From a virus: a stretch of DNA of 34,354 bases. The first letter of the stretch is position 1. Every line of letters starts with the position of its first letter. The notes under the pieces are model-generated. The model did not search any database, was not told the DNA's origin, and saw only the letters and a program-made list of their open reading frames with translations. The DNA is taken from positions 1 to 34,354 of the IMG/VR virus record IMGVR_UViG_3300049629_001406; one strand, written 5' to 3'. Of the stretch, positions 904-21,739 are shown in pieces. The translations under genes were made by a program, and so were the position numbers.

Positions 904-2148
904 ATGGAAGCACTAAAAGATAGTGGTGGTAAAAAGCCAACGACGCCAACAGATGTTGTGGCGACAAATACAGGCGCAGGTACTGTAGCTTCAATATCTT
1001 TTACCCCGTCTGAATATATCGGCAAAGACACAATTACTTACACAGCCACATCAAGTCCTGGCAGTGTTAGCGCATCAGCATCTAGCTCGCCGGTAACAGT
1101 TACTGGCCTGACAGCTGGAACAACATATACATTCACGCTAGTGGCTACAACAAACTACGGCGTATCTTCGGATACCGTTACAACTGGTTCTGTGGCAATC
1201 GGCCAAAACCCTGGCGCCCCAACAATTGGAACTGCTTCAATTGTCGCAAACGTTGATAGAGCAATTGATGTTACCTACACTGCTGGAGCTGCTGGTACCG
1301 GTGTAACAACATTTACTGCAACCTCGTCACCTGGTGGAATTACTGCAACTGGTTCTAGCCCAATTCGAGTTACTGGCCTAACAGCCGGAACTTCATATAC
1401 CTTTACGGTTACTGCATCAAACTTATTCGGTTCGGCAACTTCTGGCTCAACTGGTTCGGTTACGGCAGGTAACGCGCCTAGCGCCCCAACAATAGGTACT
1501 GCTGTAATAGTTCAGAACGTAGACAGAGCTATTGATGTTCCTTTTACTCCAGGCTCAGCTGGAACCGGCTCTCCTACATATACGGTAACCACAACTCCAG
1601 GGAGCTTGACTTTCACTGGGACAAGCCCAATTAGGGCAACTGGGTTAACAGCTGGAACTGCTTATACATTTACGGTCAGTGCATCTACCGCATACGGTTC
1701 AGCGACATCAGCGTCCTCTAACTCAGTCACTGCTGGAAACAGGCCTGGAGCTCCAACTATTGGTACCGCTACTGGCGGAAACGCTCAAGCAACTGTTACC
1801 TACACTGCTGGAACAGCAGGAACTGGAACGACAACATTTACCGCAACGTCTTCCCCAGGTAGTCTTACTGGAACTGGAACATCACCCATTACTATTACGG
1901 GCCTTACCAACGGAACTGCCTATACATTCACTGTCAGAGCATCCAACTCATACGGTTCCCAAACTTCTGGGTCTTCAAACTCCGTAACACCAGTTGCGCC
2001 ACCGTATTTTCCTCCTTATTTCCCGCCGTTTTTCCCGCCGTTTTTCCCGCCTTTCTTCCCGCCGTTCTTCCCGCCTTTCTTTCCTCCGTTTTTCCCTCCG
2101 TTTTTCCCACCGTTTTTCCCACCACCATTTGGGCCAGGCTTTAAGTAA
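904..2148 (+). CDS. Fibronectin-III-repeat virion protein with (PPYF/PPFF)n C-terminal tail
   Basis: 414 residues. Four tandem FN3-like repeats occupy about residues 12-97, 104-190, 195-283 and 285-362. Each ends in a variant of TGLTAGTxYTFTVxAxNxYGS. From residue 366 the protein becomes a low-complexity tail: two PPYF units, eight PPFF units, then PPPFGPGFK. FN3 repeats are common on exposed phage tail and adhesin proteins, and the tail-fibre gene upstream supports a virion location. The proline tail is unusual. Ten consecutive PP motifs would be expected to burden translation elongation (EF-P dependence is known for polyproline). The tail sits directly upstream of an operon of prolyl-hydroxylase-like enzymes, so it is a candidate substrate; that link is inference. 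The start is ATG 904, 3 nt after the fibre stop. Confidence 0.75.
   Translation: MEALKDSGGKKPTTPTDVVATNTGAGTVASISFTPSEYIGKDTITYTATSSPGSVSASASSSPVTVTGLTAGTTYTFTLVATTNYGVSSDTVTTGSVAIGQNPGAPTIGTASIVANVDRAIDVTYTAGAAGTGVTTFTATSSPGGITATGSSPIRVTGLTAGTSYTFTVTASNLFGSATSGSTGSVTAGNAPSAPTIGTAVIVQNVDRAIDVPFTPGSAGTGSPTYTVTTTPGSLTFTGTSPIRATGLTAGTAYTFTVSASTAYGSATSASSNSVTAGNRPGAPTIGTATGGNAQATVTYTAGTAGTGTTTFTATSSPGSLTGTGTSPITITGLTNGTAYTFTVRASNSYGSQTSGSSNSVTPVAPPYFPPYFPPFFPPFFPPFFPPFFPPFFPPFFPPFFPPFFPPPFGPGFK
1999..2118 (+). repeat. 12-bp coding repeat, ten units (PPYF x2, PPFF x8)
   Basis: Ten in-frame 12-nt units encode Pro-Pro-Tyr-Phe twice and then Pro-Pro-Phe-Phe eight times. The units differ at synonymous positions (ccg, cct and cca for Pro; ttt and ttc for Phe) while the amino acids stay constant from the third unit on. 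This suggests the peptide is what is conserved, rather than a very recent slippage expansion. The sequence runs into PPPFGPGFK and the stop codon. Confidence 0.9.
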
Positions 2149-2605: not shown

Positions 2606-3229
2606 ATGTTTTCCCAGGAAAAATTTATCGGATTAGAAGGTCTCCCATATGCAGACCCATCAAATATAGTAATAATTGAAAATTTTATTAGCAATGAACA
2701 TCTTGGGCTAATACGCGAATACTGTTATTCGATAACCGAATGGGAGTCTCAAAGCGAGCTTGGTACAGACAGCATCCATGCCCCAGAATTGATAGAGAAA
2801 AACTCCCCAAAAATTTTTTCAATAATGCAAGAATACGTAGATTCAGTGCAGCGTGAAGTTCAGTACAAATTTGGAAGATTTCTTGAAAGAACTAAACCAG
2901 GAATAAGAAAATGGAACCCTGGCGAAAGTCAAGGTGTCCATGCGGACGGGGAAACAGCAGATGGTTGGCCTGGGTATAACTACGTAGTTGATTATGGCTC
3001 AATAATCTACTTAAACGATGAGTACGAAGGCGGAGAGCTATTTTTTCCAAAATACAACATTCATATGAAGCCACAACCAGGAACGTTGATTTTTTTTCCA
3101 TCAACCAATATGTATGCTCATGGGGTTACGGAGGTTACGGATGGGGTTAGGTACACTTCTCCACATTTCTGGATTCCGGTAAAACATAAGATATTGATGG
3201 AGATGGCGGCCATGGATGTCCAAAAGTAA
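2606..3229 (+). CDS. 2OG-Fe(II) oxygenase, prolyl-4-hydroxylase type (no. 1)
   Basis: 207 residues from ATG 2606 (TTG 2594 is an alternative start overlapping the previous stop). The double-stranded beta-helix signature is complete: iron ligands H112 and D114 (GVHADGE), the strand motif YLNDEYEGGELFFP (about 135-148), KPQPGTLIFFPS, distal iron ligand H172 (YAHGVTEV) and R182, ten residues later, as the expected 2-oxoglutarate carboxylate anchor. Members of this family use O2 and 2-oxoglutarate to hydroxylate a substrate, classically peptidyl proline. The substrate is not known here. The C-terminus overlaps the start of the sulfotransferase gene by 14 nt, suggesting co-translation. It resembles the oxygenase at 4762-5388 most closely (EN-FI opening, EGGEL core). 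Confidence 0.88.
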   Translation: MFSQEKFIGLEGLPYADPSNIVIIENFISNEHLGLIREYCYSITEWESQSELGTDSIHAPELIEKNSPKIFSIMQEYVDSVQREVQYKFGRFLERTKPGIRKWNPGESQGVHADGETADGWPGYNYVVDYGSIIYLNDEYEGGELFFPKYNIHMKPQPGTLIFFPSTNMYAHGVTEVTDGVRYTSPHFWIPVKHKILMEMAAMDVQK

Positions 3230-4004
3230 AAAACTTTATTTCTTGCATATACCAAAAACATCTGGTATCAAAATGCAATACGAATTGATTGATGCCTCAT
3301 CAAAAAGTCTGTTAAAAAATAAGCCAAAAGTATATGCGCAGGATGCAAACAGGTCGCAGCATAAAGGTGATAAATTCGAGTTTGTTTTTGACCCATCAAT
3401 AGCAGATTCATACGACATAATATGCGGTCACTTTGCAAGAAACCCAATTGCAATAGTAGATGATTTAATAACATTCTCTATAATAAGAGAACCATTTGAG
3501 CAGTATCTGAGTTTGGCAAAATATGCAGCAGTTCAGTCTGGGGTTAATTTTACCGAAGAATTTCTGGACTCATTCTTAAATAATGATGACGAATTCAATA
3601 CTCAATTTGAAGGAATTTCTGGATGCAATAATCCACAGTCTTGTTTTTTATTCTCCAAAATTGCATGCATTGAAAATGAACCCTATATTAATTCATATGG
3701 AAATTTGGTTGAAGCTAGGTATCAAGCGTTCTTTGTAGAAAAGCCAAAGTCTTATTCAGAACTAAATGAAAGATTGAGCAAAATAATAATAGGGACTTTA
3801 GAAAATAGAACTTTTTTTGTAGAAAGAATAAATAAACTTTTATTTGATTTATATGGAATTAAAATATCCAATAACGATTCAGTGATTAACGAAACCCCTA
3901 AGCCAACATTTAGAATAAGCAAACAGCACAAATCTAAAATATATTCAAAAATTGAGCTAGACATTGAGCTGTATAATAAAATAAAAGAAACAGAACATGA
4001 ATGA
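3216..4004 (+). CDS. Sulfotransferase-family protein (first of a tandem pair)
   Basis: 262 residues. LHIPKTSG at residues 10-17 is the phosphosulfate-binding loop typical of PAPS-dependent sulfotransferases of the HIPKTxG group (heparan sulfate 2-O-sulfotransferase-like). The IREPFEQYLS segment (R91, S99) matches the 3'-phosphate-binding Arg...Ser motif, and CGHF at 70-73 is the usual internal motif. The expected reaction is transfer of sulfate from PAPS to a hydroxyl, usually on a glycan or tyrosine. The acceptor is unknown. The host would have to supply PAPS, as no PAPS-synthesis gene is visible. It overlaps the upstream oxygenase and the downstream paralogue. Parts are extremely AT-rich (11 G/C in 60 nt at 3781-3840). 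Confidence 0.75.
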   Translation: MSKSKKLYFLHIPKTSGIKMQYELIDASSKSLLKNKPKVYAQDANRSQHKGDKFEFVFDPSIADSYDIICGHFARNPIAIVDDLITFSIIREPFEQYLSLAKYAAVQSGVNFTEEFLDSFLNNDDEFNTQFEGISGCNNPQSCFLFSKIACIENEPYINSYGNLVEARYQAFFVEKPKSYSELNERLSKIIIGTLENRTFFVERINKLLFDLYGIKISNNDSVINETPKPTFRISKQHKSKIYSKIELDIELYNKIKETEHE

Positions 4005-4743
4005 TAAAAAAATATATCATTTACATATACCCAGAACATCTGGATATGGAATTGCTAATGCATTAGAGAAAACATTTTCTGAACAGGGTTTTCATCTACA
4101 CAAACCCACTCAGAGTGAAATCTTTTCACAGGATATATTTAAGGATAATCCATACGTATCTGGTCATTTTGCTTCAAACCCAATTTTTCAAAATAAAAAT
4201 GCTTACGATGTATTTTCACTTATTAGAGAGCCTATTCAGCATTATCTGAGTATTGCTAAATACGTGGCCAAAAGCGGCAATGTAGAGTTTGATAATTATT
4301 TTCTTGAAGAATTTATGTGGGGTAGTGTCACGCCATTCGGAGCCAACGAACTATTTTCTAGTTCTGGAAACATACAGTCAAAAATGCTTTTCTGCAGACT
4401 AGCAACATGTGACGAGTCGGTAGTTGCGTTACGTGAAATTGACGTCGCAAGTAATGTGAACTTAGTTTTTATCGAATCAGACCTACCAAAACCAAGCGCA
4501 ATAAGTGAATGCATTGAAAGTATGAATCTTTTTACTATGGATGATAGGGAAACCGCAATTAATTGGCTGGCTGATAAAGTCAAATTTACCCATGGATTTA
4601 CGCTTTCAGAAAACGCTTATTTTAAAATGAATTCAATAACTAGTCAAGACATTAAAATTTCAAATCGTACGAAACTAGAAATACTCGAAAGGTCGTATCT
4701 TGATGTCCTTTTGTACGATTTGGTCAAATCCAAGCATAGATAG
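3997..4743 (+). CDS. Sulfotransferase-family protein (second of a tandem pair)
   Basis: 248 residues, paralogous to the preceding gene. It has the binding loop LHIPRTSG at residues 9-16 (Arg in place of the more usual Lys at residue 13), VSGHF at 54-58, and LIREPIQHYLS with R77 and S85 as the 3'-phosphate-binding pair. The shared order and spacing show a tandem duplication followed by strong divergence in the C-terminal, acceptor-binding half. The ATG overlaps the previous stop by 8 nt, so the two are probably co-translated and may act on different acceptors or as a heterodimer (inference). The Lys-to-Arg change in the loop could lower activity. Local base composition is AT-rich like its neighbour. 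Confidence 0.72.
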   Translation: MNDKKIYHLHIPRTSGYGIANALEKTFSEQGFHLHKPTQSEIFSQDIFKDNPYVSGHFASNPIFQNKNAYDVFSLIREPIQHYLSIAKYVAKSGNVEFDNYFLEEFMWGSVTPFGANELFSSSGNIQSKMLFCRLATCDESVVALREIDVASNVNLVFIESDLPKPSAISECIESMNLFTMDDRETAINWLADKVKFTHGFTLSENAYFKMNSITSQDIKISNRTKLEILERSYLDVLLYDLVKSKHR

Positions 4744-5926: not shown

Positions 5927-6658
5927 ATGAGAAACATTGATGTTGAGTACGTAGGAGACCCGAAAGCTGGATTTCTGGTTTACAGGAACATATTAAGTGA
6001 AGACTTAAAAATTCCCGAAAGACTAGAAGCAACCATAGGAGACAGCACTACTCCTCCATACTCATGGATGCAGGCACTTGTTGGTGATGGTCAGGTCATG
6101 AAGGACTATAGAGACTGTGTTGATTGCAAAATGAGCCCTGCCCACTTTGAAAACTGTCCAACCCAATTCGGTGAGTTGATAAATATCTATAATGACACGG
6201 TAACTGGATTGACTGCGTGCCTACAAGATTATGAATCAAGATACAACATCCGCATGGACTTCATGGAAGCAATCAATTACGTGAGATATAACGAAGGCCA
6301 GCACTTCAATGTCCATGCTGACCATGGCTTTTCATATGTATGCACGGTTTCGTCGGTAATGTACCTAAACGACGACTACGACGGTGGCGAACTTTGGTTT
6401 CCGTTCTTGGACATTACGTTCAAGCCAAAATATGGTGACATCGTACTATTTCCTTCAACATACATCTACTCCCATGCATCAAGACCTGTAACAAGAGGGA
6501 CAAAGTATGCAGCCGTCACCATGTTTGACTACAACGACAGATATCACAAGTTGTGGAAGGGATACGGGAAAAACATGGATGGAACAGATGCCGAGTATGG
6601 ACCTGGAATAGTAAACCCAGCAGCAAACCAAGTTGATAGGTTTATCTTTAAAAAATGA
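5927..6658 (+). CDS. 2OG-Fe(II) oxygenase, P4H type with Lys 2OG anchor (no. 4)
   Basis: 243 residues. It has H130 and D132 (VHADHG), VMYLNDDYDGGELWFP (144-159), KPKYGDIVLFPS and H183 (YSHASRPV). The residue ten positions after the distal His is K193 rather than Arg. Lysine at this position is what animal collagen prolyl 4-hydroxylases use (H412, D414, H483, K493 in human P4HA1), so this is a functional variant, not a lesion. A C-terminal extension of about 40 residues (DRYHKLWKGYGKNMDG...) lies beyond the catalytic core and looks like a lid or partner-binding tail. The start is ATG 5927, and the stop overlaps the DUF6065-like gene (ATGA). Confidence 0.88.
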   Translation: MRNIDVEYVGDPKAGFLVYRNILSEDLKIPERLEATIGDSTTPPYSWMQALVGDGQVMKDYRDCVDCKMSPAHFENCPTQFGELINIYNDTVTGLTACLQDYESRYNIRMDFMEAINYVRYNEGQHFNVHADHGFSYVCTVSSVMYLNDDYDGGELWFPFLDITFKPKYGDIVLFPSTYIYSHASRPVTRGTKYAAVTMFDYNDRYHKLWKGYGKNMDGTDAEYGPGIVNPAANQVDRFIFKK

Positions 6659-7356
6659 CTAAATTGTTTTTAAAGAAAACGCATCAGCACCCTCCAAAGA
6701 TAGCTCAGTCACGAATCAAGCGCGACTGGATGGATGAAACCTACAATAAGCATGCATATCAGTGCCTTCCGATGACGGTTGCAAATGTTTATGGGTGGGA
6801 GATTGTCATGGAGGAGGACCTTGTTGTCCAGTGGGATGGAGGCAACACTCCACCGTCAATTCTTTCTGGTGAGGTAACTTCTTCTGGCAGGGTTCAGGCA
6901 ATCTCGTCAATTATTGGAATGATTTCAATAAACATGGGATGGGTAATGAACACGGAGGAGGGTTACAACACCTGGTTTTCTGGTTCACCAAACTATTTCG
7001 TTGACGGCGCGGTGGCTTTGACCGCAACGATTCCAAGCTATTGGTGGCCAGATGAGTCTCAAATGAACTGGAAGATTACAAAAATTGGAGAACCTGTCAC
7101 ATTCAAAGCCGGCACACCATTTTGCTTTTTTAACATTTATGACAATTCTGTCCTCGAAAATGTAGAAATCATTGAATCAACCCTTTGGGATGACTCAAAG
7201 CTAATTGCTTCTCGGATGAAATATGGTGAATTGAAAGCCAAAAACAATGTTGAAAAGCCATGGACGTGGACAAAAGGAATTAAAACAGGTCTTGACGCTG
7301 ATGGCAATAAAATAGGCCCCACATTCACTGGCCTGCCAAAATTAGCCAACCCGTAG
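6655..7356 (+). CDS. DUF6065-like protein
   Basis: 233 residues, coupled by a 4-nt ATGA overlap to oxygenase no. 4. The segment RDWMDETYNKHAYQCLPMTV followed by ANVYGWE (about residues 23-48) and a following beta-rich domain with WDGG, TIPSYWWPDE and GTPFCFFNIY match what I remember of the DUF6065 family, found next to 2OG oxygenases in phage and bacterial genomes. No catalytic role is established. Its tight linkage suggests it works with oxygenase no. 4, perhaps in substrate presentation (inference). The family name rests on recalled motifs and would need an HMM check. Confidence 0.6.
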   Translation: MTKLFLKKTHQHPPKIAQSRIKRDWMDETYNKHAYQCLPMTVANVYGWEIVMEEDLVVQWDGGNTPPSILSGEVTSSGRVQAISSIIGMISINMGWVMNTEEGYNTWFSGSPNYFVDGAVALTATIPSYWWPDESQMNWKITKIGEPVTFKAGTPFCFFNIYDNSVLENVEIIESTLWDDSKLIASRMKYGELKAKNNVEKPWTWTKGIKTGLDADGNKIGPTFTGLPKLANP

Positions 7357-13636: not shown

Positions 13637-14626
13637 TCAATCAAGCTTTCTGTTTAGCGGATTTATGTAACCTTTTTCCCCTTCGAGGTTCCTCACTAGA
13701 TAGTCAATTTTGTTGACATTTTCTTTTAGGTGAGAGTAATTCTGCTTGATGTGATTTGAGTACTTTTGATAATCATCGTAAACAGTGTCTATCCAGTGTG
13801 GGACACACCAGCTTGAAACCTCATCCGGCTCGGCAACTTCGAGTCTGATGTTTATGTCTGGGCTGCCTTGCGAGAAGAACTCCAAGTATGCATACCTTGT
13901 TCCACCAGTTACTTCGTTAACTCCGTGGGATGCGACATAGTTTGTTGGGAAGATTATGATGTCGCCCTTTTTGGCCTGATGGCTTATGTTTAGGTATGGA
14001 AAATACAATTCGCCACCGCTGTAATTTGTGCCATCAAGCTGGTCGACAGAATCAACGCAATCGTTTATGTACAGAAGTACGGCAACAGTCTGCCTTGCTC
14101 CAACCTGCCCGTAAGGAATATATCTTTCTCCACCAGTAGCTCTATAGTTGGTGTCGTTGTCATTATGCAGACCAAGATGCTTACCTGGGTCGTATCTAAG
14201 AACATGGCCACGGTTTCTCCACCATATGGTTCCAACCACCAGGGGGAACATGTCTATGTACCTGATTAACGTTTTGTAGATGGAGTCTTCCCATCCTCTG
14301 ATTATTTCGACTATTTCTTCTTCTGTTCCGTCCTGTACTGGCTCGAGGACTCTTACTGGAACAGTTTCAACTTGTTCAATCGAGAACTTGTTTCCGTCTT
14401 CGTTTTTTGCGTAAACAACACCGTTTTTGTCAATGTCGTATTTCCATCTTTGTTGGTGTGCAGCTAGCGCGTTATCGTCTATCCACTTTGACATCAATGG
14501 CAGGTCTACATCCATCACATCATGAAAAACAACAACCCCACCACCAAGGTCGGTGAACTTAAGATTGCGTATTTCCTCTAGTACTTCACCTGAAATGTCT
14601 GGTGTATCAACTTCATATCGTTTCAA
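13637..14626 (-). CDS. 2OG-Fe(II) oxygenase, LGGGVVVF subfamily (no. 10)
   Basis: 329 residues from TTG 14626, preceded at 7 nt by AGAGGTG. DLGGGVVVFHDVMDV (26-40), YIDMFPLVVGTIWWRNRGHV (123-142), H154 and D156 (GLHNDNDTNY), YSGGELYFPYLNI (202-214), KKGDIIIFPTNY, distal H234 (ASHGVNEV) and R244. It is the closest relative of no. 11, directly upstream, with which it overlaps by 14 nt. An approximately 70-residue C-terminal extension ends in a basic tail. Together with no. 11 it forms a tandem duplicate pair pointing towards the three plus-strand relatives. Confidence 0.87.
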   Translation of the reverse strand: MKRYEVDTPDISGEVLEEIRNLKFTDLGGGVVVFHDVMDVDLPLMSKWIDDNALAAHQQRWKYDIDKNGVVYAKNEDGNKFSIEQVETVPVRVLEPVQDGTEEEIVEIIRGWEDSIYKTLIRYIDMFPLVVGTIWWRNRGHVLRYDPGKHLGLHNDNDTNYRATGGERYIPYGQVGARQTVAVLLYINDCVDSVDQLDGTNYSGGELYFPYLNISHQAKKGDIIIFPTNYVASHGVNEVTGGTRYAYLEFFSQGSPDINIRLEVAEPDEVSSWCVPHWIDTVYDDYQKYSNHIKQNYSHLKENVNKIDYLVRNLEGEKGYINPLNRKLD

Positions 14627-15611
14627 CTTGGTTCACCTCTTGAGTCGTGTGTGTTTCACCGTACTGCGTTACGCACCTGTTTTGGAAAACAGGATTGGAG
14701 CCAAGTTCTAAGCCTGGTGTTGGTTTTGACCAAATTGAATACTCTGATTTGCAATAAAGTTCGTAGTCGTCGTAAATGTTGTCAAACCAGACTGGCTCGC
14801 ACCATTGAATGCTTGCGTCTTTCTCCTTAATTCTTATATTCGCCGCATTGTCGGTTCCGCCTTGACCAAAGAATGAAAGATATGCGTACCTAGTTCCACC
14901 CTCCATTTTTGTTACTCCGTGTGCGCAGATGTAGTTCGTTGGGAACATGATGATGTCCCCTTTTCTTGGCTTGTAGTCAATCCCGAGATACGTGAACTTA
15001 AGGTGCCCACCAGCGAAGTTTGTTCCATCAAGCTCATCAGCGCTGTCAACACAATCATTGAAATATGCCAAAGCCCCAGCTGTCTGCCTGAGAGCCACCT
15101 GCCCGCGTGGCATATATCTGACGCCCTGGGTCACCTTGTAGTTGGTGTCGTTGTCTTGGTGCCATCCAAGTATTCCGCCACCGTCGTATCTGAGGATGTG
15201 ACCCCTGGTTTTCCACCATAGGCTCCCAACGATTAACGGGAACATGTCCGTATAGCGAATCAGGCACTTGTAGATGGCGTCCTCAAGGCCTGTGAAGTAT
15301 TTGACTACATCTGGGCTTGTCGCCTCTGTAACGGGCTCTAGGAGCCTTACAGGGGCGTTTGGGACGTCTTCTAGGCGATACCTGAAGCCATCTTCGTTGA
15401 TGCCATACTCAACCCCGTCCTCATCGGTGATATATGACCACCGGCTCTTGTGTGCTTCGGCTGCGCACTCGTCAATATGGCTCAAAATTGACTGCTCGAC
15501 ATTGAATGCATTTCTGAAAACAACTATCCCACTTCCAAGGTCGTCAACAGTTAATTGACTAATCTCCAGAAGCTCTTGCGCTCCAATGTGTGGAGTGGAT
15601 GGCATTTTCAT
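14613..15611 (-). CDS. 2OG-Fe(II) oxygenase, LGGGVVVF subfamily (no. 11)
   Basis: 332 residues from ATG 15611. DLGSGIVVFRNAFNV (24-38), YTDMFPLIVGSLWWKTRGHI (120-139), H151 and D153 (GWHQDNDTNY), FAGGHLKFTYLGI (199-211), KPRKGDIIMFPTNY, H231 (CAHGVTKM) and R241. It shares with no. 10 the insert VDS.D.LDGTN before the core strand, showing recent common descent. An approximately 80-residue C-terminal extension ends in a Thr/Gln-rich stretch. The gene starts 2 nt after the glutathione-peroxidase-like stop. Confidence 0.87.
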   Translation of the reverse strand: MKMPSTPHIGAQELLEISQLTVDDLGSGIVVFRNAFNVEQSILSHIDECAAEAHKSRWSYITDEDGVEYGINEDGFRYRLEDVPNAPVRLLEPVTEATSPDVVKYFTGLEDAIYKCLIRYTDMFPLIVGSLWWKTRGHILRYDGGGILGWHQDNDTNYKVTQGVRYMPRGQVALRQTAGALAYFNDCVDSADELDGTNFAGGHLKFTYLGIDYKPRKGDIIMFPTNYICAHGVTKMEGGTRYAYLSFFGQGGTDNAANIRIKEKDASIQWCEPVWFDNIYDDYELYCKSEYSIWSKPTPGLELGSNPVFQNRCVTQYGETHTTQEVNQVETI

Positions 15612-15613
15612 GA

Positions 15614-16237
15614 TTAACCTACAAGAAATTTTACTGCTTCAATGACGGTCCAAGACGAACCAGCAGCGAGTGGCTTATCTGCCAATGGTAGGTCGGCCCA
15701 ATTAAATCTTCCCACCTGCTGACCATCCCTGCTAACCATAAATTTTTCATGGTTGTGAGGTATCCGCATTATTGCTTGTCCAGCAAGGTTCTGACCAGCA
15801 GCAGCCCTTTCAGAACCGTCTGCCTTGTTGTCGTCAAAAGCGCGTACAACTTCACCTTTTAGAAAGGTCCAAATTTGGTGTTCGTTAGGACCGTTAACTT
15901 CAACTTTTTCCGTAACTGGAAAAGTTACAAAAGGATAAGCATCTAAAATGAATTGCGCAATATCGCCATTTTCTGCTGGTTCCATTTCGCCAAACTGATT
16001 ACATGGAAAAGCAACAACACTAAAGCCTTTGTCCTGAAACATTTCATGCAGTTGCTGAAGTTCCCACAACTGTTTCGCTGCTCGAGCATACGACCAGACA
16101 GGACTACATTTCGGAGAATACCCAGTCCTTGTAGCAATATTTGTGAACAAACAAACCTTGCCTCGGACCTGCTCCATTACATTGACTGAGCCATCTACCG
16201 AATTTATTGGCATGTCAAAAACAGATTTAATGCTCAT
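15614..16237 (-). CDS. Glutathione-peroxidase-like protein lacking the peroxidatic Cys
   Basis: 207 residues. The fold signature is clear: KVCLFTNIATRTGY (27-40), LQQLHEMFQDKGFSVVAFP followed by CNQFGEMEP (60-87), FPVTEKVEVNGPN (106-118) and KFMVSRDGQQVGRF (165-178). In active family members NVAS-x-(U/C)-G carries the peroxidatic residue; here that position is T38. The WNF triad tryptophan is also replaced (HNHEKF at 161-166). C79 and Q81 of the CNQFG motif remain, and an insert of about 15 residues with C44 follows the mutated loop. Classical peroxidase chemistry is therefore doubtful unless C44 substitutes. The protein may be an adaptor or thiol-binding protein. It overlaps the upstream gene by 4 nt. 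Confidence 0.8.
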   Translation of the reverse strand: MSIKSVFDMPINSVDGSVNVMEQVRGKVCLFTNIATRTGYSPKCSPVWSYARAAKQLWELQQLHEMFQDKGFSVVAFPCNQFGEMEPAENGDIAQFILDAYPFVTFPVTEKVEVNGPNEHQIWTFLKGEVVRAFDDNKADGSERAAAGQNLAGQAIMRIPHNHEKFMVSRDGQQVGRFNWADLPLADKPLAAGSSWTVIEAVKFLVG

Positions 16238-16533: not shown

Positions 16534-16552
16534 GCCAAGATGCTAGCACCGG

Positions 16553-17503
16553 CTATGGCGTGCGTATGTGTGTTTTAGGACCATTCAGTACATTGACTGT
16601 TCCATCTCTAAAATTTAAACCAGAGAACTCTTCGTACTCATCCAAAGTTCGTTCACTTCCTAAAGCACCCTCACCGACGACTCGGTCTGTAAATATTGCC
16701 CTGTATTCAGCTTTTGATTCAGCGTCCAAAATCTCCCATTCTTTTGAAAAATCAGTCCAAACATGATGCCGTCTTGTCTTTTCAAAAGATTGTTCACCTA
16801 TATATAGGTGACCGACCACAGGCGTCAGTGGGACAACCAGCGTAAACCCATGGGTGAAAGCTCTTGCAGCGATTAAAGGCTCTTCCCCCCAAAAAGCAAT
16901 TTTTTCATTTGGCTTAATTTGATGAAAATCACCAGAAGTAAATATAAAACCACCAGAAACAGATGGTGTAAAAACGCAGTTTTCTCGAGCAGTTACTGCA
17001 GTTTGACTAGGTATTAATGTATTTTTGAATTTTTTAATATCGTCAAAAAAAGATATTTCAGTCATATGTTCTAAACCGTGTTTAAATATTGCGTTCCCAT
17101 CCTCGTCGTACACATACGCTGCTGGGTACATTGTGATTAGTGGTTTGGTTATACCGCAAGATGTGATTTTTTCTAAGTCGGTTATTAATATCGCATCCCA
17201 GTTTTTTGTAAATCGCATATGTGAATCAATTTGCAGATAATAGTCTTCGCCGTTATAAAATTCATTAGCTATATATCTGGATTTCTGTAGACCTATATTT
17301 TTTGGTGCAACGCTTTCTGCGTAGTTAACTGTTACCCAAAATGGATAATTTGTGTCAACAATTGTTTCCCCGCTGAATAAAACACAATTGTGTATACCGA
17401 AAGACAGTTTGATAAATCCGCTGGCATTTTCAACCAAGCTTCTGACAGTGTTATTCAGCTCATGGTCTCTGTATGCTGGTATTTGTATAAATATGGATTT
17501 CAT
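16553..17503 (-). CDS. GT60-like N-acetylglucosaminyltransferase (Skp1 GnT1 / polypeptide GlcNAc-transferase family)
   Basis: 316 residues. The N-terminal FIQIPAYRDHELNNTVRSLV (YRD at 11-13), GLQKSRYIANEFY (71-83), YYLQIDSHMRFTKNWD (88-103, with D93-S-H as the metal/nucleotide-sugar motif), SGGFIFTSGDF (183-193), FWGEEPLIAARAFTHGF (204-220) and GHLYIGEQ (231-238) follow in order the conserved blocks of the GlcNAc glycosyltransferase family (PF11397, GT60). Known members transfer GlcNAc from UDP-GlcNAc to hydroxyproline of Dictyostelium Skp1, made by a prolyl 4-hydroxylase, or to Thr of trypanosome mucins. Its presence among P4H-like genes is therefore suggestive. The donor and acceptor here are inferred. 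ATG 17503 is 1 nt after the radical SAM stop. Confidence 0.8.
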   Translation of the reverse strand: MKSIFIQIPAYRDHELNNTVRSLVENASGFIKLSFGIHNCVLFSGETIVDTNYPFWVTVNYAESVAPKNIGLQKSRYIANEFYNGEDYYLQIDSHMRFTKNWDAILITDLEKITSCGITKPLITMYPAAYVYDEDGNAIFKHGLEHMTEISFFDDIKKFKNTLIPSQTAVTARENCVFTPSVSGGFIFTSGDFHQIKPNEKIAFWGEEPLIAARAFTHGFTLVVPLTPVVGHLYIGEQSFEKTRRHHVWTDFSKEWEILDAESKAEYRAIFTDRVVGEGALGSERTLDEYEEFSGLNFRDGTVNVLNGPKTHIRTP

Positions 17504-17504
17504 C

Positions 17505-18521
17505 TTACTCCCACACGGCGCTTGAGCATGATGTGCATATTGATTCTAGTGCTCGTTCTATCATGGACACATGAGAATCGCTTTGCCAGATACTGTTCAA
17601 ACTGTTTTCATTAAGTGAGCCAAAAGTGTAGTCAAAATCAAAATCGTTACAACAAAGAAAAGCATCACCCAGCGCGTTTACATGTAGCCAACCGTATATG
17701 CGCCCATTTTTTCCATTTGAACAACCAACAACGTTTGTCTTATCTCCCTTGAGCCTCAAGATTGCTTTGGAGTTATTTATTACTTTATGTTCGGCGAGTA
17801 TAGATGCCCTATCCACAAGGGACTCAACTGGGAATATATTCAACCCAGGGAAAAGTGATTTTGCTAATTTTACTTGCTTTTGCGATTCTCCAGTCTGAGG
17901 GTTTAGGTCAATATCAGGAGCATTCTCCATCATCTCCATCCATCCACCGTTTTGCTCTTGGTGTGCTGAAGTTGGAATGTTCACACCAATAGAAAAATTC
18001 CCGCTTTCAGTTAGTTCTGGAAACGACTTCATAGTTCGTAAAACATTGTCTGCAAGATGGGAAAAAGAATATCTTGTAATGCCAGACCTTTCCTGCCAAA
18101 GTCCATCCTCAAAAGCTGGGATATTCAAATTTATACCCGTGACTACGTCTTTGTACTTTTGTAAGATTTCAACTTTTTCCTCATTTAGATTTACCCCGTT
18201 TGATAGCACCATTGTCTTGAAGCCGTAACACCTAGCCAAAAGAAGCATCTCTTCTAGGTGTTTGTAAAGCAGTATTTCATTGTAGTGAGCAGTATAGAAA
18301 TGCCAAAAATTATTGTCAACAACTCCATTTGATTTATGTTTTTCTTTATGCAACTCGGATAAAATTTTATCCATTAGGTCCACTGGCATGTGTTTTGCTG
18401 TCTGCGGTGGGTTCTTCTGATATCTAACAGGGCAAAACCAACATTTTGCATTACAAAAACCAAATGGGTCTATCTGGGCATCTGTTATCTTGAATGTTTT
18501 TAAATTGTCTAATACTGACAT
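17505..18521 (-). CDS. Radical SAM enzyme with SPASM-like C-terminus
   Basis: 338 residues from ATG 18521 (a TTG 57 nt upstream lies inside the preceding gene and is less likely). FGFCNAKCWFC gives the CxxxCxxC cluster motif (C23, C27, C30) that binds the SAM-cleaving 4Fe-4S cluster. The barrel strands follow (KTMVLSNGVNL, GINLNIPAFEDG). The C-terminus has C267, a conserved GWLHVNALGDAFLCCNDF segment (C290, C291), a FGSLNENSLNSIW motif and C329-TS-C332, typical of SPASM-domain auxiliary clusters. SPASM enzymes usually modify peptides or other large substrates by radical chemistry. No precursor-peptide recognition domain is evident. It sits between a 2OG oxygenase and the GT60-like gene, so a shared protein substrate is possible (inference). 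Confidence 0.82.
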   Translation of the reverse strand: MSVLDNLKTFKITDAQIDPFGFCNAKCWFCPVRYQKNPPQTAKHMPVDLMDKILSELHKEKHKSNGVVDNNFWHFYTAHYNEILLYKHLEEMLLLARCYGFKTMVLSNGVNLNEEKVEILQKYKDVVTGINLNIPAFEDGLWQERSGITRYSFSHLADNVLRTMKSFPELTESGNFSIGVNIPTSAHQEQNGGWMEMMENAPDIDLNPQTGESQKQVKLAKSLFPGLNIFPVESLVDRASILAEHKVINNSKAILRLKGDKTNVVGCSNGKNGRIYGWLHVNALGDAFLCCNDFDFDYTFGSLNENSLNSIWQSDSHVSMIERALESICTSCSSAVWE

Positions 18522-18558
18522 GGTGTGTTCTTTTTGTGTGACTTCAGATGAAAATTGA

Positions 18559-19149
18559 TTAAGACCACCAGTTAACAACCGAATACTTGGTTCCTTCTAT
18601 GACCGGCATTGATGAGTGCGAGTATGGTGCGACAGATGGGAAAATGACGATATCGCCAGCTGATGGCGGATAGTTGAATTCTATTTTATCAAAGTCTAAA
18701 TTCCCACCAACAAAATCGTCATTAAGGTATCCAACTGCTGAAACTTTGCGTGGTGTTTTTTCACCATCGTCTAAATGGTGTATATAGTGTTCGCTGATTC
18801 CATATTTTAAAATTGAGTAATACTTTGATTTGTCAATATCAACTTCAATATTGAACCTAAATAAAAAATCAATCAGGCATTTCGTAAACGATTCGTGAAA
18901 AAAGTTATTAACATATCTTGTTGCAGAACAGAAAATGTCGTTTCCCAGTGTCGAGAGAGCAAAATCACTGTTTGTTCTAATCGTACTGATAGATGAAGTG
19001 CCATTAGGATTTACCACAGAAGCTTTTTTCCAAGAAAATTTGGTGTTTAATTCATTTCCTAAAACCGACTCAACTACATCAATTATTGACTGTGGATGCT
19101 TAATTGCTCCTCTGTAAATCGCAACCCCATTACAAATGACTGGTTGCAT
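18559..19149 (-). CDS. 2OG-Fe(II) oxygenase, P4H type with Lys 2OG anchor (no. 12)
   Basis: 196 residues from ATG 19149 (an in-frame TTG is 9 nt upstream). H125 and D127 (IHHLDDGE), VGYLNDDFVGGNLDF (139-153), AGDIVIFPS, distal H178 (YSHSSMPV) and K188 ten residues later in GTKYSVVNWW. Like no. 4 it uses lysine as the probable 2OG anchor, and both share the GTKYxxV sequence, so they are a distinct subgroup. It is the first enzyme gene of the minus-strand accessory block after the two small genes downstream of the fibres. Confidence 0.86.
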   Translation of the reverse strand: MQPVICNGVAIYRGAIKHPQSIIDVVESVLGNELNTKFSWKKASVVNPNGTSSISTIRTNSDFALSTLGNDIFCSATRYVNNFFHESFTKCLIDFLFRFNIEVDIDKSKYYSILKYGISEHYIHHLDDGEKTPRKVSAVGYLNDDFVGGNLDFDKIEFNYPPSAGDIVIFPSVAPYSHSSMPVIEGTKYSVVNWWS

Positions 19150-19176
19150 GATTTCCAAAGAATTACGTGAGTTTTT

Positions 19177-19404
19177 TTACCACTTGCCTATAGGGCATGC
19201 GGCTGATTGCACTTTTACTTTTAGCTTCATAAAACAACCACATTCCTTGCACTGTTTTGTTGATTTAATCAACCTAGGGCACTCTTCGCAAATCGCAAAC
19301 CGCCGAGTTGCTTCTACGTCTGATGATTGGACAACGTTTGGATTCAAAACGTCCCACGGACGAGCCTCACCTAATTTTGCTTTATACTCTTTCCATGCGC
19401 TCAC
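19177..19404 (-). CDS. Small Cys-rich (zinc-ribbon-like) phage protein
   Basis: 75 residues from GTG 19404, preceded by AGGAGAG. FAICEECPRL, QCKECGCFMKLKVKV and AACPIGKW place five cysteines plus a sixth near the end in a metal-binding arrangement (CxxC, CxxCxC, C). The ending CPxGKW is shared by a family widespread in phages of aquatic bacteria (DUF6171-like by recollection). It probably binds zinc. The function is unknown; it lies between the fibre genes and the modification block. Confidence 0.7.
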   Translation of the reverse strand: MSAWKEYKAKLGEARPWDVLNPNVVQSSDVEATRRFAICEECPRLIKSTKQCKECGCFMKLKVKVQSAACPIGKW

Positions 19405-19405
19405 G

Positions 19406-19627
19406 TTAAACAGCTCTCCTAAATTCGCCGTCTACGTACACCCAGTCACCGTCAACCTGTCCAACGAGCTCCTGTGGAATCAGGACCACTTGTGGTTGTG
19501 ATGAAAGAGCTGCACAGTGTGCTGGCATTGATGCTCGATGAAATGAGTGTGTTACCGCCACCTCCCCATCAACGACAAATGCAAAATTATCAAACTCGGT
19601 TGCGTCGTATTCAGCTACTTCGGCCAT
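19406..19627 (-). CDS. Small hypothetical phage protein
   Basis: 73 residues with acidic/hydrophobic alternation (FAFVVDGEVAVTHSFHRA, PQVVLIPQELVGQVDGDWVY). It probably forms a small beta-rich domain. A CAGGAGA ribosome-binding site precedes ATG 19627. Short genes with the 'VVDGEVA ... SQPQVV ... GDWVYVDGEF' layout are common near tail or fibre genes of aquatic phages; no function is known. Confidence 0.65.
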   Translation of the reverse strand: MAEVAEYDATEFDNFAFVVDGEVAVTHSFHRASMPAHCAALSSQPQVVLIPQELVGQVDGDWVYVDGEFRRAV

Positions 19628-19657
19628 GGTTTCTCCTGATTTTTGAGTTGCTGCATC

Positions 19658-20683
19658 TTATGGGCAGGATGGGCCTGCGCAGTACGAATACGAGGCACAT
19701 CCAGCTTTTGTACAAGTATATACACGACAGTTAGCGCTTGCCCCTGGTGGAAGCGGGCTACAAACCGCTCCAACGGTGCATGTGAAGCCAGTGGAACAGT
19801 TAACTGGAGCCGCGGTAGTTGGTGGCGGGGTAGCTGCTGGAACCCCGCAGTAACCAGGAACCTCCGCCGCGGATGCGACGTATTGGCCACAGCATCCGTC
19901 ACTGTATACCTGCTGGAGGAATGTTCCATTACAATTTTGCCCATAATAGACGGTGTCTTTTGCTGGGCAGCCAGCGCAAGGGGGGGCGGTAGTTGGTGGC
20001 GGAGTAGGCACTGGAGTAGTTGGTGGCGGAGTAGGCGCTGGAGTGGAAACATTCGTTGACTCTGACAAGAATATTGCATCTGAGTTTGCCCAGCCAGTCT
20101 TTGACACGTATAGGTATGTTTCTCTGTATACGTTCTCTCCAAGGCCGGTCCATCCGTGGCAGCTTCCACTTTGGTCGTTTGGAGCAGAAACATTGAAGTC
20201 GTAGTAGTTATATACATAACCATTATCTTGGTCAATTGACGCATAGTTGTCAAAGCACCAAGGAATAGTACTTGTTGTCTCTGTAATGTCCGAAACGACA
20301 GGTGTTGGGACTTTGCCGAACAGTGGTGTTACCGAATTTGATGCAGTTGAATATGGACCAGTTCCAATATTGTTAACTGCGGCAACTCTAAACACGTATG
20401 CAGTTCCATTAACTAGACCAGTAACAGTGACCGATGTAGCAGTGGAAACCGTGTCCGTAAAGGTTGTCCAAGTGCCTCCGCTGTCGCTTGAGTACTGAAT
20501 CGTATAGTCGCTAAAAGCAGGACTACCAAGCGTAACTGGAGCAGTCCAAGCAACCGATGCAGTCGTATTACCGTATGTGCTCGGAAGACTTGCTGTAACA
20601 GAAGTTGGTGCGCCTGGAACGAATCCCATGCGAAAACCAAACTTACTAGTTGAGCCGCTTCCAATACGGTTTAAGAATGGCAT
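19658..20683 (-). CDS. FN3 adhesin-like protein with Thr/Pro-rich linkers and Cys-rich C-terminus
   Basis: 341 residues. One FN3-like domain spans about residues 24-120 (APTSVTASLPSTYGNTTASV to SNSVTPLFG). A second beta segment follows (121-210), including a Cys/Tyr-rich YVYNYYDFN portion. A Thr/Pro-rich tract (STPAPTPPPTTPVPTPPPTT, about 213-232) leads into a Cys-rich region (14 Cys between 236 and 340). A second TPPPTT tract is at about 285-290. The arrangement resembles an exposed stalk with mucin-like linkers and disulfide-rich tip domains. The Thr/Pro tracts are plausible acceptors for a hydroxylase plus a GT60-type transferase, which is inference. It lies just downstream of the fibre gene at 20690-21739, probably the same virion substructure. 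Confidence 0.75.
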   Translation of the reverse strand: MPFLNRIGSGSTSKFGFRMGFVPGAPTSVTASLPSTYGNTTASVAWTAPVTLGSPAFSDYTIQYSSDSGGTWTTFTDTVSTATSVTVTGLVNGTAYVFRVAAVNNIGTGPYSTASNSVTPLFGKVPTPVVSDITETTSTIPWCFDNYASIDQDNGYVYNYYDFNVSAPNDQSGSCHGWTGLGENVYRETYLYVSKTGWANSDAIFLSESTNVSTPAPTPPPTTPVPTPPPTTAPPCAGCPAKDTVYYGQNCNGTFLQQVYSDGCCGQYVASAAEVPGYCGVPAATPPPTTAAPVNCSTGFTCTVGAVCSPLPPGASANCRVYTCTKAGCASYSYCAGPSCP

Positions 20684-20689
20684 AGTTCA

Positions 20690-21739
20690 TTACGCAAATT
20701 TCGTTTGACTCGCAAGAACAGTAAATGCAGCATTTCCTGTTTTTATTACAGACAACGTGTAGGCATCAATTGAGTTTGCATTTCCTGTTGTCGGTGCGGT
20801 TCCGCCCATCCACTTCGGAGTTACAGCCGAACCATCTACCTGGAATACAGTCGGTCTTCTCTGCGTCGTACCTATCGTTGCAAGAAAAGTCACTGTAGCA
20901 ATTTGTCCAGTTGAGATAGTGTCATTAAGAGAGACGCTTGATGTTCCTCTTACGTTTAACGTCCAGTCGGCTGATGCATTTCCTGTGTAGTAAACAGTTG
21001 GGTTTGTGCTGAAATCAATGTTGACTGTTCCAGTGGCTGAAGCCGAGACAATATTTGCTATTTCAATTACTGTGGTTACATCTGCGGTTGCAAGCGTTGC
21101 TTTTCCAGCGATGAAGTTTCCAGAAGCATCTCTCGCAACAATTGCTGAAGCGGTGTTGGCATTTGTTGCAGTAGTTGCCGAGTTTGATACTTTTCCAGCT
21201 GTAGCGATAGTCGCCAATTTCGTATCTACTATGCCAGCAGAAGCATTTATGTCTGCGTTAACTATTGTGCCATCAAGTATTTTGTCACTTGTAACAGCGC
21301 CTGTGGCTAGTTTGGATTCTGTGACCGCACCGTTCTGTATCTCGGCTGTTTGAATCTCAGTGCTTCCACCAGTTAGAACCCACAAGTCAGTCCCACGCTT
21401 TATCAGTGTTGCTCTAGTCCACTGGCTTGCAAGTGTTGTTAATCCACCCTCTGCGTTGAGTGTTACTCCAGAGTCACCAACGATGCTCAAGGTTCCAGTA
21501 GAAGCAAGCAGAATATCAACTCTGTCACCAATTTCGATTGGCGCTGCCGCGTTTGTGGGTATCGTTAAGGTGATTGAGCCAGTGTTTTCAAACTCAACAA
21601 GTTTTCCTCTGTCGGAAAAAACTATTGTGTACGAGGTTCCGGGTTGAACGTTGCGCGTGAAGTTGAAGTCGCTTGCCTGAAGCGTGTTCATCTGGGCAGC
21701 TGTAAGCGTTTGCCCTGCTGTAAATGTTTGAATTGTCAT
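20690..21739 (-). CDS. Tail-fibre-like structural protein
   Basis: 349 residues from ATG 21739. It opens with FTAGQTLTAAQMNTLQASDF, a common phage fibre start. Residues 30-124 carry the module YTIVFSDRGKLVEF...TLIKRGTDLWVLTGG, also found at the C-terminus of the plus-strand fibre (164-254 there). Residues about 139-175 have repeated SKLATG/KILDGTIVNADINASAGI elements, typical of fibre shafts, and the C-terminal region is Thr/Ala-rich beta. It starts the minus-strand fibre block and is followed 6 nt later by the FN3 adhesin gene. It is likely a receptor-binding fibre or its shaft; the ligand is unknown. Confidence 0.75.
   Translation of the reverse strand: MTIQTFTAGQTLTAAQMNTLQASDFNFTRNVQPGTSYTIVFSDRGKLVEFENTGSITLTIPTNAAAPIEIGDRVDILLASTGTLSIVGDSGVTLNAEGGLTTLASQWTRATLIKRGTDLWVLTGGSTEIQTAEIQNGAVTESKLATGAVTSDKILDGTIVNADINASAGIVDTKLATIATAGKVSNSATTATNANTASAIVARDASGNFIAGKATLATADVTTVIEIANIVSASATGTVNIDFSTNPTVYYTGNASADWTLNVRGTSSVSLNDTISTGQIATVTFLATIGTTQRRPTVFQVDGSAVTPKWMGGTAPTTGNANSIDAYTLSVIKTGNAAFTVLASQTKFA

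Follow-up and report, generated by a model that had tools for sequence, protein, structure and literature searches.

A GT60 glycosyltransferase gene that is exchanged together with the threonine/proline linker of a phage fibre protein

The minus strand of the window, by which we mean the whole 34,354-base virus record analysed here, carries an operon in the order fibre gene, two small open reading frames (ORFs), 2OG oxygenase, radical SAM protein and GT60 glycosyltransferase. The most informative finding of our analysis is that the linker of the fibre protein and the enzymes encoded behind it are exchanged together, and the best reading of that exchange is a swappable cassette that passes as a unit between phages. 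We hold with moderate confidence that the GT60 protein O-glycosylates threonines in the linker of the upstream fibre, the oxygenase and radical SAM protein modifying that same linker, and that these genes form the exchangeable cassette; all three enzymes of the operon, that is, probably decorate the Thr/Pro-rich fibre linker. The features of the operon, with the basis of each assignment, are as follows.

20690..21739, minus strand: fib2, a fibre-like tail gene upstream of the tip gene (phrog_8780 minor tail protein, phrog_5906)
19658..20683, minus strand: fibre/tip protein FN3_TP, the proposed substrate (PF00041; PHROG minor tail protein; sequence)
19810..20049, minus strand: linker segment of FN3_TP, replaced in locus L306 along with the enzymes (blastn break, flanks 94% and 88% identical)
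19406..19627, minus strand: small ORF of 73 aa, directly after the fibre gene (sequence)
19177..19404, minus strand: small ORF of 75 aa with CxxC pairs and a C-terminal CPIGKW (sequence)
18559..19158, minus strand: 2OG-Fe(II) oxygenase OG_l, prolyl-4-hydroxylase-like (PF13640, 48 bits; HLD...H...GTK; AF2 fold)
17505..18578, minus strand: radical SAM/SPASM protein, 357 aa (PF04055 and PF13186)
16553..17503, minus strand: GT60 (PF11397) glycosyltransferase, 316 aa (PF11397, AF2 model, invariant residues)

OG_l overlaps the start of the radical SAM gene by 20 bp, and the radical SAM stop codon lies one base ahead of the GT60 ATG (sequence 17503-17510), so that OG_l and GT60 share an overlapping operon with one gene between them. 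FN3_TP comprises a fibronectin type III domain, a Thr/Pro linker (STPAPTPPPTTPVPTPPPTTAPP; a peptide of the linker is STPAPTPPPTTPVPTPPPTT) and a Cys-rich end, and a 27-bp tandem repeat lies at 19989-20044 inside the linker segment. The 75-aa CxxC/CPIGKW protein, possibly a fibre assembly factor, is encoded within a 633-bp spacer (window 19178-19810) whose DNA is 88% identical in L306; the CPIGKW ending is also found on an ORF just upstream of the GT60 gene of L044, and many relatives have similar-sized small ORFs between the fibre gene and GT60 or radical SAM. At a larger scale, sheath, tube, tape measure and baseplate genes run leftward from the right end of the window and are followed by the fibre genes on the same strand, the sheath protein being 40-41% identical to actinobacteriophage sheaths. 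Downstream of GT60 there are more 2OG oxygenases, a glutathione peroxidase and an NAD-binding protein; the glutathione peroxidase gene (15614-16237, minus strand) sits inside the modification gene cluster and is kept in relatives.

The coupled exchange was seen in an allelic series of 12 loci with the same scaffold, found by searching with the N-terminal 200 residues of the fibre, which are conserved. Thr/Pro linkers (window, L308 and L309) are followed by a radical SAM gene and a close GT60, PPSFTAP/PPTFTAP linkers (L306 and L312) by a different oxygenase that overlaps a different GT60, with no radical SAM gene, and PPSFPPSF linkers (L311 and L315) by a protein of ~150 aa and oxygenases, no GT60 being found downstream in either locus, where the sequence of L311 is short. 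PPPPDP linkers (L307, L310 and L314) are followed by still other genes. The DNA of L306 is 94% identical to the window up to the linker, 88% across the spacer and 89% past GT60, and this otherwise near-identical phage has replacements in just two places, the linker (19810-20049) and the oxygenase-radical SAM-GT60 stretch (16551-19178). The linkers of L306 read PPSFTAPPSFTAP, and its GT60 is 28.7% identical to that of the window and scores 97.8 bits against PF11397. L309 differs from the window just in the absence of the oxygenase, and the main difference of L308 is the linker itself. This joint swap of linker and enzymes suggests that such phages build mucin-like fibres, and it makes the substrate assignment directly testable.

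A second fibre in the window serves as a comparator.

904..2148, plus strand: second fibre, with FN3 domains and an (FFPP)n tail (PF00041, sequence)

There is no GT60 gene near this fibre, which is followed by a plus-strand oxygenase array and two ORFs with sulfotransferase-like (ST) motifs. A tandem repeat at 2002-2120 (plus strand) encodes the (FFPP)n tail. About 40 related loci, many of them near-duplicates, share this tail and a similar order of oxygenase and ST genes, and they too have no GT60. The two ORFs adjoin one another (3216-4743, plus strand) and begin with HIPKTSG or HIPRTSG, recalling the PAPS-binding loop of sulfotransferases; they have no Pfam match at E 0.01, and their recurrence beside (FFPP)n fibres suggests that this fibre may be sulfated. 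A DUF6065 protein (6655-7356, plus strand, 151 bits) adjoins the oxygenase array. In the series examined, neither (FFPP)n nor (PPSF)n linkers adjoining oxygenases have a GT60 nearby. It is tempting to generalize that each linker type (Thr/Pro, Pro-Ser/Thr-Phe and Phe-Phe-Pro-Pro) travels with enzymes of its own, and that here a prolyl-4-hydroxylase (P4H)-like oxygenase, a radical SAM protein and GT60 would give a hydroxylated, O-glycosylated, radical-SAM-modified spacer of mucin or HRGP type, an extension that we offer only tentatively.

The association of GT60 with threonine extends well beyond this series. GT60 relatives of about 37% identity or more mostly have a Thr-rich low-complexity tract in a same-strand upstream fibre or tail gene, examples being TTTTTTTTTTTTTTTPAPP, TPTPTPTP, TTAATTAATTAATT and TTATTATTATT. 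With a tract defined as at least 16 of 18 residues T, P, A or S, including at least 6 T, and with same-strand genes within 4 kb considered in 34 loci dereplicated at 75% identity, a tract was present upstream of GT60 in 25 of the 34 and downstream in none of 31. Only one of 799 genes in GT60-free control loci contained such a tract; these loci were picked by another fibre protein, fib1, because a baseplate-J query gave only near-identical phages. The low-complexity criterion was adopted because simply counting Thr also picked up Thr-rich FN3 domains among the control genes, and an initial score of Pro plus Ser/Thr was dropped because it missed poly-Thr tracts. When placement was examined over whole contigs (23 contigs), 16 had a tract no more than 4 kb upstream, where genes drawn at random from the same contigs would have given 2.31 (P 2e-15; P 1e-7 and 9e-13 with two alternative tract criteria), values to be read with the reservation that the criteria were picked after inspection of the data and that GT60 relatives are not fully independent. 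Clustering of the close class at 55% identity left 15 clusters, 11 of them with a tract, and the 31 upstream genes fell into 21 families once the tract was masked.

It is important to note that this association does not hold everywhere. Among distant GT60s a tract accompanies only 6 of 18, L042 combines GT60 with a Phe/Pro linker, L045 has no tract, and in the closest relative (L236) no GT60 lies within 3.5 kb of a second Thr-Pro fibre. The reverse link, from Thr tract to GT60, is weak: of 85 loci where a gene encodes T8 or longer, 1 had a GT60 in view, as did 5 of 120 with TPTPTPTP. Such GT60-free tracts may be served by other enzymes or left unmodified.

An earlier note on this DNA, written from the sequence alone, had assigned the protein to GT60 from its YRD, QIDSHMRF, GGF, WGEE and HLY blocks and had proposed a profile comparison as the check. 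All of these blocks are present, and the profile bears the assignment out, with a PF11397 match at E 2.9e-40 and 139.3 bits against a Pfam cut-off of 21; that cut-off was also passed in a search of the virus's own record, and PHROG 24687 ('glycosyltransferase') is matched as well. The ORF has the coordinates given in that note but lies on the minus strand, with its ATG at 17503. D93, H95, E208 and H232 are among the residues invariant in a 35-sequence alignment of relatives, and D93-S-H95 forms a D-x-H motif that is a candidate metal-binding site by likeness to related enzymes. PDB sequence searches with the protein and with a 35-member profile detected no relative; only fold comparison gave one. 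The AF2 model (pLDDT 79, pTM 0.83) has as its nearest solved fold the polypeptide GalNAc-transferase ppGalNAc-T2, of family GT27 (Z 16.4 over 242 residues, about 16% identity), a preference that is modest because other GT-A enzymes reach Z 14. The alignment covers the catalytic domain only, and 316 aa are too few for the ricin-type lectin domain. Among viral models, the fold is matched best by unstudied proteins from uncultured phages that carry the name 'Glycosyltransferase, GlcNAc'. We predict from the model that GT60 is a retaining GT-A polypeptide O-glycosyltransferase.

GT60s are common in uncultured phages, with relatives at no fewer than 498 loci in viral contigs (at least 498), while only three cultured-phage records with a relative were found, all of jumbo phages. 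XacN1, RAS14 and CM1 are cultured phages with both a GT60 and Thr/Pro proteins. A PF13640 oxygenase is present in 17 and absent from 25 of the 42 GT60-bearing contigs of at least 25 kb, although contigs may be incomplete. Among 23 contigs covered for the most part, 6 have an oxygenase no more than 4 kb from GT60 where chance would give 3.4, a difference that is not significant (P 0.07). A scan of genome contigs added six distant GT60 loci (26-30% identity) with no clear Thr-tract pattern. One ORF of 1200 aa (L498, 3627-7226) combines HPAT-like, PF11397 and 2OG-oxygenase domains, HPAT being hydroxyproline O-arabinosyltransferase; its contig is metagenome-assembled and binned as 'Gammaproteobacterium', possibly wrongly, and, given the fusion, distant GT60s may glycosylate hydroxyproline. 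As to other neighbours, an NAD-dependent sugar epimerase gene overlaps or abuts GT60 in L034 (4695-5540), and tandem GT60 gene pairs with overlapping or abutting ends are present in L076, L077, L080 and L085. A DUF7164 protein, possibly a second glycosyltransferase, is encoded just upstream of GT60 in L028 and L049 (by Pfam) and in L005 (similar by eye); a second such enzyme would be expected beside GT60 if the first sugar is extended.

We classed twelve ORFs of the window as 2OG-Fe(II) oxygenases, nine of them above the PF13640 cut-off, one above that of PF13759 and two just under the PF13640 cut-off, with an HxD...H...R/K pattern in most. Besides OG_l they include two genes downstream of GT60.

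14613..15611, minus strand: 2OG oxygenase OG_k, same direction as GT60 (PF13640, 35.7 bits)
13637..14626, minus strand: 2OG oxygenase OG_j, same direction as GT60 (PF13640, 39 bits)

That GT60 has prolyl-hydroxylase-like neighbours had also been claimed in the earlier note, and OG_l agrees with it: the AF2 model (pLDDT 83.5) has as its nearest solved fold 3gze, an algal P4H with (Ser-Pro)5 (Z 20.4, rmsd 2.0, 171 residues), nearly all of its top 50 fold matches are prolyl hydroxylases, with PBCV-1 vCPH among the close folds, and its HLD...H...K residues supply the HxD...H and the basic 2OG-binding residue of a P4H. OG_l may be called P4H-like by its modelled fold, which by itself does not give the substrate. 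Another oxygenase of the window (5927-6658) matches bacterial P4Hs by sequence (E 1e-6). The radical SAM protein is itself coupled to GT60. In 8 of 8 relatives of at least 63% identity with downstream sequence, GT60 follows in an overlapping frame; no GT60 follows the more distant relatives (34-44%). Among loci that have both radical SAM and GT60, linkers of alternating Thr-Pro accompany an upstream oxygenase and poly-Thr linkers its absence (P 0.003, 6 v 10), a post hoc hint that the oxygenase may act on linker prolines; across all loci the link between oxygenase and Thr-Pro is not significant (P 0.065).

Prolyl 4-hydroxylase genes have been listed among the auxiliary genes of viruses, their use being cryptic (PMC9301287). 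2OG oxygenases are widespread in cyanophages (157 phage records), and these and the PBCV-1 prolyl hydroxylase belong to the same superfamily as the window oxygenases, but their pairing with GT60 and a fibre linker was not reported in the open-licence literature searched, nor did that literature yield a paper on any phage GT60, or on one that modifies a fibre linker. Mycobacteriophages have glycosylated capsid and tail-tube proteins (Freeman 2023, cited in PMC12619734) and so resemble the proposed system in phage-encoded glycosylation of structural proteins; they differ in that capsid and tail-tube C-termini are involved, and the text consulted mentions neither a GT60 nor a linked gene for P4H or radical SAM. 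Two activities of GT60 itself are known from experiment, the addition of alpha-GlcNAc to Thr (TcOGNT, Gnt2) and to the hydroxyproline of Skp1 (Gnt1) (PMC3769586, PMC9472816, PMC8724618). The T. cruzi enzyme TcOGNT acts on Thr, with KPPTTTTTTTTKPP as assay peptide (PMC3769586; also PMC9472816). TcOGNT and Dictyostelium Gnt2 share a Pfam family with the phage protein, and their acceptors are rich in Thr, as are the putative phage acceptors, the often Pro-containing tracts of the upstream-only association described above. TcOGNT and Gnt2 are eukaryotic enzymes that modify surface mucins in the Golgi, whereas the phage GT60, a predicted transferase, shares an operon with its putative substrate. 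The Skp1 P4H/Gnt1 pathway of protists resembles the window in the P4H-like oxygenase adjoining GT60, but its target is a single hydroxyproline of Skp1, whereas the phage tracts are Thr-rich and sometimes proline-free, and many of the phages have no detected oxygenase. Judged by acceptor tracts, the Thr-acting mucin branch appears the better precedent than Skp1 Gnt1.

What our data show directly are the genes and their coupling, the modelled folds, the tie of GT60 to Thr tracts and the joint replacement of linker and enzymes; the sugar, the linkage, the acceptor residue, the order of steps and the benefit given next are inferred. GT60 would be a cytoplasmic UDP-HexNAc (probably UDP-GlcNAc):polypeptide alpha-O-glycosyltransferase whose acceptors would be threonines in the low-complexity Thr/Pro linker of the fibre protein of its own operon. 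The product would be a short mucin-like spacer, stiff and protease-resistant, between the fibre body and the Cys-rich tip. Further modifications of the same linker would come from the oxygenase and radical SAM protein, the oxygenase most likely hydroxylating prolines of Thr-Pro or Pro-Pro repeats, and proline hydroxylation is likely to be an extra step beside threonine glycosylation.

The main alternative is a series of the Skp1 kind, in which linker prolines are first hydroxylated by the oxygenase and GT60 then adds GlcNAc to the resulting hydroxyproline. The earlier note had proposed such a two-step pathway aimed at virion proteins. Its choice of target agrees with our results, the fibre protein being the likely one, and the pairing that it supposed is physically present, because oxygenase and GT60 share an operon and the oxygenase has a P4H-like fold; for the window allele and its sisters a two-step pathway seems plausible. 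The oxygenase-radical SAM-GT60 trio recurs in L004, L046, L051 and L055, oxygenase and GT60 form the overlapping pairs of L306 and L312, and the link of oxygenase to Thr-Pro alternation, the fusion in L498 and a plant-pathogen fusion of P4H and GlcNAc-transferase (as cited in PMC8724618) all lean the same way. What is not supported is GT60 acting on hydroxyproline as a general rule. Were GT60 dependent on a hydroxylase of its own genome, the 25 of 42 contigs without PF13640 would be hard to accommodate, though these may be fragments and a host could supply the enzyme; proximity of oxygenase to GT60 and the all-loci link to Thr-Pro are not significant, and Pro-rich linkers adjoin oxygenases with no GT60. 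GT60 is accompanied instead by Thr tracts, several of them proline-free (T11S; TTAATTAATT), and L032, L036 and L041 combine T11S with contigs that have no PF13640 gene at all, so hydroxyproline cannot be the sole acceptor residue if the tract is the acceptor. Threonine thus appears the better-supported acceptor, and we regard the Skp1-like series as unlikely.

Two further readings dispense with the fibre as substrate. GT60 might target the host or a non-protein molecule (a surface glycan, DNA or a small molecule) and merely be stored in a host-recognition island near the fibre genes; glycosyltransferases of phage host-recognition clusters have been interpreted as O-antigen modifiers (PMC7029224), and the GT60 of jumbo phage XacN1 adjoins a carbamoyl transferase. 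The association with Thr tracts, the co-replacement with the linker and a fold like that of polypeptide transferases speak against this, and we consider it improbable. Alternatively, the Thr tracts may be hypervariable simple repeats tolerated at fibre ends, adjacent to GT60 by chance and with no enzyme-substrate relation, as the many T8 and TPTP tracts with no GT60 nearby would allow. This seems to us very improbable given the near absence of tracts from matched GT60-free fibre loci, their spread over 21 masked families and the joint change of linker type and enzymes in one allelic series.

If modification of the fibre linker by GT60 and its companions is correct, mucin-type O-glycosylation of Thr/Pro linkers would be widespread in phage fibres and phage-encoded, with substrate and enzymes packed in one small module. 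Many glycosyltransferases of uncultured phages would thereby acquire a function, as would at least part of the numerous 2OG oxygenases found in aquatic phages, for which a cryptic role has been described (PMC9301287), and compact GT60s, with their natural acceptors alongside, would become available for testing in E. coli.
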